A DNA stretch of 41,345 nt from Nitrospirae bacterium CG2_30_53_67. GTDB taxonomy: Bacteria > CG2-30-53-67. Made by a program: the position numbers and the translations under genes. The notes beneath the pieces are model-generated. The model had not been told where the DNA came from. It worked only from the letters and a program-made list of their open reading frames with translations, and did not search any database. Below, in pieces: positions 4,923-6,734 of the stretch. Location: assembly GCA_001873285.1 (NCBI GenBank), contig MNYV01000083.1, forward strand, positions 1 through 41,345, read 5' to 3'. Numbering within the stretch: position 1 is the first letter of the stretch; each line of letters begins with the position of its first letter.

Positions 4923-5068
4923 TACGGTCGTTGTGCGGACGAAGCGCTTTCAGGTTTCCCTGCGGCACACAAGACTCCACGCTTAGGGCTGCTCCTGTCA
5001 CGGCCTGACCCGGTTCACATGTACTCGTTGCGCAGGACCTGAACCGCTTCGCCCGCACAACGACCGTA
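4923..5068 (-). ncRNA. ffs: Signal recognition particle RNA (4.5S-type)
   Basis: The minus strand carries the SRP helix 8 signature, GGGTCAGGCC then GTGACAGGAGCAGCCC (complement of 4986-5011), with upstream CGCAACGAGTACATGTGAACC matching the E. coli layout. Arms at 4923-4955 and 5037-5068 form a long near-perfect helix that closes the molecule. Position and spacing fit the known tRNA-Ser/SRP RNA/dnaX order of B. subtilis. The apical loop reads GTGACA between CC and GG instead of the usual GGAA tetraloop, so it would be a variant loop. Exact ends are uncertain by several bases. Confidence 0.88.
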
Positions 5069-5139
5069 AAATTTTTCTTCAAAAAATTTAATTACAATTT
5101 GCCTTAGCAGATTGCCTCTTTTTTCGCAAAGCGAAAAAA
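5067..5139 (-). repeat. Triple-hairpin RNA spacer, copy a (between tRNA-Ser(GGA) and ffs)
   Basis: It directly follows the CCA of tRNA-Ser(GGA) and directly precedes ffs. Hairpins in minus-strand order: TTTTTTCGC/GCGAAAAAA, then a CAATCTGC/GCAAATTG pair with one wobble, then AAATTTTTT/AAAAATTTT. Same architecture as copies at 5228, 5599, 6487 and 6658. Confidence 0.8.
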
Positions 5140-5227
5140 TGGCGGAGAGGGGGGGAGTCGAACCCCCGGTAACTTTCGCTACACACGATTTCCAGTCGTG
5201 CACCTTCGGCCACTCGGTCACCTCTCC
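5140..5227 (-). tRNA. tRNA-Ser(GGA)
   Basis: An 88 nt class II tRNA with CCA encoded. Acceptor GGAGAGG pairs with CCTCTCC, and the discriminator is G. The anticodon stem CACGA/TCGTG encloses the loop CTGGAAA, so the anticodon is GGA and reads UCC/UCU. There is a long variable arm, and the T-loop TTCGACT is present. It is flanked on both sides by triple-hairpin spacers. Confidence 0.97.
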
Positions 5228-5300
5228 TAAAATTTTTCTTCAAAAATTTTAGCCGCAATTTGCTGAAGCAAATTGCCTCTTTTTTCGTGAAACGAAAAAA
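5228..5300 (-). repeat. Triple-hairpin RNA spacer, copy b
   Basis: The most regular copy. Perfect pairs are TTTTTTCGT/ACGAAAAAA, GCAATTTGC/GCAAATTGC and TAAAATTTTT/AAAAATTTTA. It separates the duplicated tRNA-Ser 3' end at 5301 from tRNA-Ser(GGA). Compared with other copies, several base pairs differ on both strands of the stem at once. Confidence 0.82.
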
Positions 5301-5527
5301 TGGCGGAGAGAGAGGGATTGTGCTTTACCGCTCCGGAACGAAGTTCCGGAGCGCCGCACGCCCCGCTTCTCATATCCTTGCCGCCTCCGGCGGCTACAAC
5401 ATTAAGGTATCTTGGGGTCGAACCCCCGACCCCGGGGCTTCGAATCCCACCAATCCTGTCAGGGTTTCATCGCTCATTGCGTCTCTGCGTTATACCAAAG
5501 TGAGCTGCTGGCGGAGAGAGAGGGATT
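5301..5527. mobile_element. 208 bp insertion bounded by duplicated tRNA-Ser 3' end
   Basis: The 19 bp sequence at 5301-5319, identical to the last 19 bases of tRNA-Ser(CGA) at 5509-5527, is repeated directly 208 bp away. In between lies sequence unlike the rest of the array, with a perfect hairpin (GCTCCGGAAC/GTTCCGGAGC around 5330-5352) and a CCGCC/GGCGG hairpin near 5380. A direct repeat of a tRNA 3' end around foreign DNA is the layout left by tRNA-targeting integration (attL/attR). No integrase is present, so this would be a remnant or a small non-autonomous element; a plain duplication cannot be excluded. Confidence 0.6.
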
Positions 5528-5598
5528 CGAACCCCCGGTGGGATGAACCCACACCTGATTTCGAGTCAGGCGCCTTCGACCAGCTCGGCCATCTCTCC
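5509..5598 (-). tRNA. tRNA-Ser(CGA)
   Basis: A 90 nt class II tRNA with CCA encoded. Acceptor GGAGAGA pairs with TCTCTCC. The anticodon stem CCTGA/TCAGG encloses the loop CTCGAAA, so the anticodon is CGA and reads UCG. Long variable arm; T-loop TTCGAAT. Its last 19 bases recur at 5301-5319 behind a 208 bp insertion. Confidence 0.97.
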
Positions 5599-5672
5599 TA
5601 AAATTTTTCTTCGAAAAATATTCATTGCAATTGGTTTCAGCCAATGGCTTCTTTTTTCGCGAAGCGAAAAAA
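5599..5672 (-). repeat. Triple-hairpin RNA spacer, copy c (overlaps tadA 3' end)
   Basis: Hairpins TTTTTTCGC/GCGAAAAAA, GCCATTGG/CCAATTGC (one mismatch) and a degenerate AATATTTTT/AAAAATTTT pair. Unlike the other copies it follows a protein gene: the tadA reading frame runs through the first hairpin and half of the second before stopping at 5637. Confidence 0.78.
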
Positions 5673-6140
5673 TGGCGTAGATCTGATTCGTGAAAAAAAA
5701 TCTTTTAACAATAAACTCGCTTCTTTTTCCAAAACCCCACCTGTCACAGGGACCTGATGGTTCAGGCGAAAATCCTGCAGGATATGGTATTCAGATCCAG
5801 AGGCTCCTCCCTTTGGGTCTCTCGCGGCATAAACCAGCCGGCCGAGACGGGACTGAATCATGGCCCCTGCGCACATGACACAAGGCTCAACCGTGACATA
5901 CAGGGTTACATCGGTAAGCCGCCACCGATTCAGCATAGCTGCCGCGTCGCGAAGCGCAATGACTTCGGCGTGTGCCGTCGGATCCTTTAAGGTTTCTTTC
6001 AGATTGTACCCTCTTCCGACGACCTGATCGCCGAACACGGCTACAGCGCCGATAGGAATCTCCTGGCAGGCCGATGCCTTGTGCGCCTGTTCCAGCGCTA
6101 ACGACATATAGTACCGATCTAAGGAGTCCTGCTTTTCCAT
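5637..6140 (-). CDS. tadA: tRNA-specific adenosine-34 deaminase TadA
   Basis: A 167-residue zinc-dependent deaminase that converts A34 to inosine in tRNA-Arg(ACG), allowing it to read CGU, CGC and CGA. The zinc site is intact: H57-A-E59 and P86-C87-V-M-C90. The substrate tRNA gene lies next door at 6410-6486. The last 13 residues (from T155, TPFFRFAKKEAIG) are encoded by triple-hairpin spacer copy c, so the C-terminus has been replaced or extended by the repeat. No convincing ribosome binding site precedes ATG 6140; the upstream bases are AT-rich and begin an intergenic stretch with a large inverted repeat. Confidence 0.94.
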   Translation of the reverse strand: MEKQDSLDRYYMSLALEQAHKASACQEIPIGAVAVFGDQVVGRGYNLKETLKDPTAHAEVIALRDAAAMLNRWRLTDVTLYVTVEPCVMCAGAMIQSRLGRLVYAARDPKGGASGSEYHILQDFRLNHQVPVTGGVLEKEASLLLKDFFSRIRSTPFFRFAKKEAIG

Positions 6141-6409
6141 AAGGAGTTTATATTTATGGTTCTTCTCCCATTTAGTGGGTAAAAAGGGTTCGAGGATTCC
6201 AGGGTTCGAGGGGTCAAGTGTTTGTTTTCCAGTGATTTTATCAGTTTGTTATTTTGTAAATCTCCAAGCATAATTGATAAGACTTCTGTCAAACCTTTAA
6301 TTCCTTGTAGTTTTTGAGCACTTCACTTGACCCCTGGAATCCTTGACCCCTTGACCCCTGATGTTTTCACCCGCTCTTTTGGGGATGATCCATATTTATT
6401 AATCAAACA
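6141..6409. repeat. Intergenic stretch with a 27-35 bp inverted repeat
   Basis: Between tadA and tRNA-Arg. Arms at about 6186-6220 and 6324-6359 are inverted copies sharing GGATTCCAGGG and GGGGTCAAGTG on one strand. The left arm carries a 6-8 base insertion, and the arms also contain short tandem GGGTTCGAG / CCTTGACC units. About 100 bp of AT-rich sequence lies between them. It could be a small MITE-like element or a structured leader for tadA. No coding sequence was found. Confidence 0.6.
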
Positions 6410-6486
6410 TGGTGCGCCCAGCAGGATTCGAACCTGCGACCTTTGGATTCGTAGTCCAACGCTCTATCCAATTGAGCTATGGGCGC
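6410..6486 (-). tRNA. tRNA-Arg(ACG)
   Basis: A 77 nt tRNA with CCA encoded. Acceptor GCGCCCA pairs with TGGGCGC, and the discriminator is A. The anticodon stem TTGGA/TCCAA encloses the loop CTACGAA, so the anticodon is ACG, the known TadA substrate in which A34 becomes inosine. T-loop TTCGAAT. It is preceded by spacer copy d. Confidence 0.97.
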
Positions 6487-6562
6487 TGAAATTCTTACCA
6501 CATAAGAATTTTAATTGCCATTTGCGTAGGCAAATGGCCTCTTTTTTCGCGAAGCGAAAAAA
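6487..6562 (-). repeat. Triple-hairpin RNA spacer, copy d
   Basis: Hairpins TTTTTTCGC/GCGAAAAAA, GCCATTTGC/GCAAATGGC and AAATTCTTA/TAAGAATTT, all perfectly paired. The second and third stems each differ from copy b at one pair, changed on both sides (A-T to C-G in the second, T-A to C-G in the third). This is compensatory change rather than drift. Confidence 0.82.
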
Positions 6563-6657
6563 TGGCGGAGAGAGAGGGATTCGAACCCTCGGTAGAGCTT
6601 TAAGACCCTACACTCGCTTAGCAGGCGAGCGCCTTCAGCCGACTCGGCCATCTCTCC
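6563..6657 (-). tRNA. tRNA-Ser(GCU)
   Basis: A 95 nt class II tRNA with CCA encoded. Acceptor GGAGAGA pairs with TCTCTCC. The anticodon stem CTCGC/GCGAG encloses the loop CTGCTAA, so the anticodon is GCU and reads AGC/AGU. It has the longest variable arm in the cluster. T-loop TTCGAAT. Confidence 0.97.
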
Positions 6658-6734
6658 TAAAATTTTTCCTGCGTAAAAATTTTAAAACGCAATTTGCTTC
6701 AGCAAATGGCCTCTTTTTTCGTGAAGCGAAAAAA
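6658..6734 (-). repeat. Triple-hairpin RNA spacer, copy e
   Basis: Hairpins TTTTTTCGC/ACGAAAAAA (one non-canonical or wobble pair), GCCATTTGC/GCAAATTGC (one mismatch) and AAAATTTTT/AAAAATTTT. In two stems it is intermediate between copies b and d, as expected if paired positions changed one side at a time. Confidence 0.8.

Follow-up and report, generated by a model that had tools for sequence, protein, structure and literature searches.

The window is the whole stretch of 41,345 nucleotides that was analyzed in this study, and it represents one contig of a 2.36-Mb draft genome (183 contigs). From position 3232 to position 8133, it carries a cluster of serS, tRNA-Ser, tRNA-Arg(ACG), tadA, ffs, and dnaX that is kept across the family; this cluster places the synthetase beside its cognate tRNAs and TadA beside its substrate tRNA. 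The corresponding gene order in Bacillus subtilis is serS-tRNA-Ser-tadA-scr-dnaX, which the cluster resembles. Read along the minus strand, the elements run serS, tRNA-Ser(UGA), spacer e, tRNA-Ser(GCU), spacer d, tRNA-Arg(ACG), roughly 270 bp of sequence, tadA, spacer c, tRNA-Ser(CGA), an insert of 200 bp, spacer b, tRNA-Ser(GGA), spacer a, ffs, and dnaX, with the following positions:

6829 to 8133, minus strand: serS (seryl-tRNA synthetase), upstream of the array; an open reading frame named by sequence and synteny, without a family search
6735 to 6820, minus strand: tRNA-Ser(UGA), by ARAGORN and Rfam RF00005
6658 to 6734, minus strand: spacer e, with stem 1 at 6714-6734, stem 2 at 6689-6710, and stem 3 at 6658-6684
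6563 to 6657, minus strand: tRNA-Ser(GCU), by ARAGORN and Rfam RF00005
6487 to 6562, minus strand: spacer d, with stem 1 at 6542-6562, stem 2 at 6517-6538, and stem 3 at 6489-6511
6410 to 6486, minus strand: tRNA-Arg(ACG), the TadA substrate, with no hairpin after it, by ARAGORN and Rfam RF00005
5637 to 6140, minus strand: tadA (tRNA adenosine deaminase), by its translation and homologs; its final codons and stop lie inside spacer c
5599 to 5672, minus strand: spacer c, between tadA and tRNA-Ser(CGA), with stem 1 at 5652-5672, stem 2 at 5627-5648, and stem 3 at 5599-5621
5509 to 5598, minus strand: tRNA-Ser(CGA), by ARAGORN and Rfam RF00005
5301 to 5440, minus strand: RtT-like element, by alignment with the copies in relatives and sub-threshold RF00391 matches on those copies
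5228 to 5300, minus strand: spacer b, with stem 1 at 5280-5300, stem 2 at 5255-5276, and stem 3 at 5228-5251
5140 to 5227, minus strand: tRNA-Ser(GGA), by ARAGORN and Rfam RF00005
5067 to 5139, minus strand: spacer a, with stem 1 at 5119-5139, stem 2 at 5094-5115, and stem 3 at about 5069-5089
4925 to 5066, minus strand: ffs (SRP RNA), by RF01854 at 88.6 bits, with ends inferred from the terminal helix CGGTCG/CGACCG
3232 to 4887, minus strand: dnaX, an open reading frame with an ortholog in the same-genus relative (locus L035), named by sequence and synteny

The serS ortholog at L035 is 94% identical, and the TadA homologs in the closest named records with this cluster are 91% (Hainich-H32-bin143) and 67% (CG2-30-53-67 MAG) identical, which makes membership of the candidate phylum CG2-30-53-67 probable. 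A repeat (GGGGTCAAGGGGTCAAGGATTCCAGGGGTCAAGTG) is located 3' of tRNA-Arg(ACG) at 6185-6410 and also 3' of tRNA-Gln(TTG) elsewhere in the genome (L162, G000:C131); the window copy appears to belong to a larger inverted repeat.

Each of the spacers a to e is about 75 nt long and, read in the minus-strand sense, contains three hairpins in a common order, as given in a preliminary description of this DNA and confirmed by folding. Each occupies almost exactly the space that separates the encoded CCA (the tadA 3' end in the case of spacer c) from the mature 5' end of the following RNA, and stem-loops lie at, or a few nucleotides from, the mature tRNA ends; the T6 run described right behind the encoded CCA is exact. 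Stem 1 consists of 9 bp with a 3-nt loop and is nearly identical in all five copies, stem 2 consists of 9 bp, and stem 3 consists of 8 to 11 bp that are nearly all A-U, with the linkers GAG between stems 1 and 2 and AAUUA between stems 2 and 3. Judged by the fold z-scores against dinucleotide shuffles, spacers d (-5.4) and b (-4.2) are strong folds, whereas a (-2.0), c (-1.8), and e (-1.9) are modest. The spacers lie between co-oriented RNA genes, except that spacer c is preceded by tadA. The five spacers are real, but the earlier statement that every RNA gene except the first is joined to the next by one was too broad, in that nothing of this kind follows tRNA-Arg(ACG) and spacer c follows tadA; nor are all RNA genes directly joined by spacers, since tRNA-Ser(CGA) and spacer b are separated by the RtT-like insert. 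No named family was found at the gathering score in an Rfam scan of the spacers, in which only the ffs match (RF01854, spanning 4912-5112) runs into spacer a, and the RtT covariance model (RF00391) gave no match on any of the five. The C-terminal tail of TadA (STPFFRFAKKEAIG) is the translation of stems 1 and 2 of spacer c (5637-5680), an overlap that is also present in the same-genus genome and absent in genus g3.

The insert beside spacer b is a GC-rich element separate from the hairpin spacers. It follows tRNA-Ser(CGA), the final ~20 nt of which are repeated at the end of the element (5301-5320). The same family is also found 3' of tRNA-Ser genes in relatives (L022, 993-1880; L015, 966-1212; and L036, 5400-7000, where it is apparently tandem), in which the copies start with RTGAGAA after an inverted copy of the resident tRNA 3' end and, at their other end, repeat the terminal ~20 nt of that tRNA. 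The insert was first considered as an IscB/HEARO omega RNA because its family begins with RTGAGAA; Rfam pointed to RtT RNA instead (RF00391, E. coli tyrT operon), with which the family shares the hallmarks GATGAGAA, GGTTCGA, and the tRNA 3'-end copy. The RF00391 matches in two other genera of the family cover the whole model length at 30.5 bits at best, below the cut-off of 45, and thus are sub-threshold matches outside Gammaproteobacteria; among 14 control genomes, only E. coli has matches. The window copy (5301-5440) gave no match in this search, and the family differs from RtT RNA in scoring below the Rfam gathering cut-off.

A repeat family that uses tRNA ends had been proposed for the array, and this description suits the RtT-like element and not the hairpin spacers. 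One array does hold five related copies, one of which ran into the 3' end of tadA beside CTACGCC(A), a sequence resembling the tRNA-Ser end, as might be expected if the spacers were copies of a single REP/MITE-like palindromic repeat or of a mobile family at tRNA ends. However, dispersal was assessed on 379 kb of the genome and by genome-wide searches, and the DNA and model searches of the own genome returned nothing beyond the array apart from one degenerate copy behind tRNA-His, not the many copies at unrelated intergenic sites that characterize REP and MITE sequences. In addition, the copies in relatives occupy orthologous places, so they are not recently mobile, and other tRNA spacers share the layout with unrelated hairpins. 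We therefore regard a mobile repeat as very unlikely.

Control of transcription by terminators or attenuators, possibly directed at antisense transcription, is a most improbable explanation. On the plus (antisense) strand, CTCTTTTTT follows stem 2 in spacers a, b, and d; however, the three terminator-like sites found (a GC-rich stem followed by a T-run) compare with 3.1 expected in shuffles, all are antisense, and the second genus has not retained the T-run. The earlier suggestion of attenuators does not hold, as the sense strand contains no terminator-like site.

The paired changes that had been pointed out in stems 1, 2, and 3 are all real in the five-copy alignment. The final pair of stem 1 is C-G in a, c, and d, U-A in b, and a C.A mismatch in e; stem 2 changes from A-U to C-G in d and also from U-A to G-C in c; and stem 3 changes from U-A to C-G in d. 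The conclusion drawn from them, i.e., selection on RNA structure, could not be carried by the five copies alone, for which the RNAalifold covariation term is not favorable (+0.8 kcal/mol), but gained support once relatives were added, with compensatory changes that reach into the second genus. Stem 1 then shows clear covariation, and stem 2 a weaker signal. When 14 stem 1 sequences are aligned without gaps, 96.8% of the cells are paired, a percentage raised by the hand-picking of ends that carry a hairpin, and six of nine pairs are changed on both sides (mean of 2.3 in shuffles; 0 of 500 as high), while sliding the partner strand leaves at most one such pair. For stem 2 (15 sequences, picked in the same way), three of nine pairs are changed on both sides, and 36 of 500 shuffles are as high.

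A search model built from the five window copies was run against the own genome and relatives, as the preliminary description had advised, and further copies were found at orthologous places: the same-genus genome has five (four strong, one weak), and the second genus (g3) has three. Strong matches are confined to these two genera, and synteny is kept. In the same-genus genome, spacers e and c are orthologous, spacer d has kept only its first stem, and little remains of stem 3 in a and b. The stem sequences of the second genus are new, with GGTTTTTGC/GCAAAAACC and TTTTGTCGC/GCGACAAAA where the window has TTTTTTCGC/GCGAAAAAA, and stem 3 is ATAATTTTAC/GTAAAATTAT. This hairpin type is absent after the serine tRNAs of genus g2. 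Weak matches (G005, G006, G021, G057, and others; E of 0.01 to 0.9) include one at a tRNA in G005 and two in G006 with no tRNA nearby. Between the two same-genus genomes, 15 of 151 sites differ in the orthologous spacers c and e (10%), compared with 154 of 442 four-fold sites of tadA, serS, and dnaX (35%), which, together with the compensatory changes, supports selection on structure.

These data also bear on whether the spacers were passively copied along with the tRNA-Ser genes and homogenized by recombination, without function, which we consider improbable. Four of the five tRNAs in the array are tRNA-Ser with near-identical ends, and the near identity of stem 1 would fit such a history. 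On the other hand, the genes that come after spacers d and a are unrelated (tRNA-Arg and ffs), the stems differ between copies in a compensatory manner, and the layout recurs with unrelated sequences in clusters of tRNAs for other amino acids.

This recurrence was assessed in the tRNA neighborhoods of four family genomes and of others outside the family. Among tRNA-tRNA spacers, 18 of 41 in the family and none of 47 controls have at least 70% of their length paired, and hairpins abut both mature ends with z < -2 in 17 of 41 and 1 of 47, respectively; the spacers are not phylogenetically independent, and hence the p-values of 8e-8 (pairing) and 5e-6 (abutment) are too small. Stem-loops are located at the tRNA 3' end in 16 of 115 family cases and 4 of 160 controls, and at the 5' end in 10 of 116 and 0 of 159. 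The median fold z barely sets the family apart from controls, unlike coverage and abutment, because many control spacers hold terminators. Other clusters of the family also contain spacers that consist essentially of one or more hairpins, unrelated in sequence, that touch both tRNAs, such as a 23-bp stem between tRNA-Gly and tRNA-Cys; in the second genus, long stems are found in the Tyr-Gly, Arg-Lys, and Ile-Ala spacers. Unstructured tRNA spacers (Cys-Leu) are also present in the same genomes. The pattern is seldom seen beyond the family, as sampled by G006 and unrelated controls. Of the 28 perfect AT-rich hairpins in a 379-kb portion of the genome, half (14) are located no more than 120 nt from a tRNA. 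The spacers of the array are thus real, structured, and conserved at the family level, and the pattern is tied to tRNA clusters, not to dispersed palindromes or sense-strand terminators. Lineage-wide tiling of tRNA spacers with hairpins appears to be new.

The main rival to a processing role remains template switching during replication, which would make and perfect inverted repeats in tRNA spacers, so that pairing and covariation reflect mutation rather than selection. RNA hairpins, with compensatory changes in their stems, have been reported to arise and persist through template switching (PMC8794818), and covariation does not therefore prove selection. The near-perfect long palindromes of unrelated sequence in several spacers, including the tRNA-Gly/tRNA-Cys stem, are as this mechanism would predict. 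Nevertheless, stem 1 differs in sequence between the two genera but has the same length (9 bp), the same 3-nt loop size, and the same position at the CCA; wobbles and mismatches persist in the stems; the spacers are less diverged than four-fold sites; and such hairpins are not scattered over other intergenic DNA. For these reasons, we judge template switching to be unlikely, though a more serious contender than the alternatives above.

We favor, at slightly better than even chances, the interpretation that the spacers act as RNA-level punctuation of a polycistronic tRNA/SRP RNA precursor, insulating the tRNAs and setting the cuts of RNase E/G and RNase P. The processing-signal role suggested in the preliminary description is supported by hairpins that abut the mature tRNA ends, and the anatomy, the orthology in two genera, the covariation, a divergence below that of synonymous sites, and the association with tRNA clusters all point in this direction. 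In a cotranscribed precursor, each spacer would fold locally during transcription. Since hairpin 1 begins at the CCA and hairpin 3 stops at the next mature 5' end, each tRNA would be isolated and kept apart from its near-identical serine neighbors, against misfolding. Cuts by RNase E/G would fall in the short linkers (AAUUA and GAG) between tandem structured elements, and stem 1 would then be trimmed back to the CCA by exonucleases. Stem 3, almost all A-U, may delay RNase P until the stem opens, so that RNase P would cut in a set order.

The gene content of the genomes and the folding of the precursor bear on this proposal. CCA is encoded in all tRNAs listed in the genome, two RNase E/G genes are present in each genome, and no RNase Z scores above the curated cut-off in the genomes; this predicted repertoire fits 3' maturation by an endonuclease followed by exonucleases, the route used in E. 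coli. Mean acceptor-stem pairing is 0.69 with the native spacers and 0.61 with shuffled spacers (Wilcoxon p 0.03). The effect is small and mixed case by case, which makes insulation plausible but weakly supported. In the minimum-free-energy fold of the whole precursor, some hairpins of spacer e are not kept, and the uneven presence of the spacers across the same-genus genome and genus g2 counts against punctuation.

Palindromes also adjoin tRNA genes in the mitochondria of Neurospora crassa, where they were once proposed as processing signals; those are GC-rich and share one repeated sequence, whereas the hairpins described here are AT-rich, variable, and bacterial. A few E. coli operons are known to carry stem-loops next to the sites at which their pre-tRNAs are cut. 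Among these, the ValVW dicistronic precursor has one close to the mature 5' end, at a distance of 2 nt from the RNase P site, that slows cleavage about 10-fold and orders processing (PMC10731613). Such stem-loops are single cases in E. coli, whereas here whole spacers are tiled with hairpins that abut both ends in many clusters of one bacterial family. In E. coli, RNase E cuts polycistronic tRNA precursors under the direction of tandem structured elements, and a simple stem-loop can replace a tRNA (PMC9841416). The single-stranded linkers between tandem structures are alike in the two systems; the structures are neighboring tRNAs in E. coli and added hairpins here, where cleavage in the spacers is predicted. 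The layout of the window spacers, structured ends joined by short linkers, suits both E. coli precedents. The present proposal is, in this sense, an extension of a known idea, that of single E. coli stem-loops, and not a new kind of element.

As a more tentative generalization, which we consider possible but on balance doubtful, spacers across the family may be remodeled, as a general rule for its tRNA precursors, into self-complementary hairpins that abut both ends, with structure rather than sequence being kept, and structure alone may thereby order the cuts of RNase P and RNase E/G. If a lineage tiles spacer after spacer with hairpins, it would offer a natural series of substrates for structure-ordered cutting by these enzymes. 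Such a lineage would also allow a test of whether the covariation seen in short palindromes stems from selection or from template switching; a mutational by-product would be a caution for covariation-based RNA discovery.

Two further kinds of tRNA spacer were observed. The tRNA spacers of genus g2 (L210, L215, and L206) contain long purine-rich/pyrimidine-rich inverted repeats of the GGGAAATAGGAA...TTTCCTATTTCCC type, which are unlike the AT hairpins of genus g1 but similar in their fold-back layout. The spacers of the Lys-Glu-Val-Asp cluster (L170 and L208; Glu-Val-Asp of G001 and G002) hold partial tRNA-like remnants without a proper 3' end.
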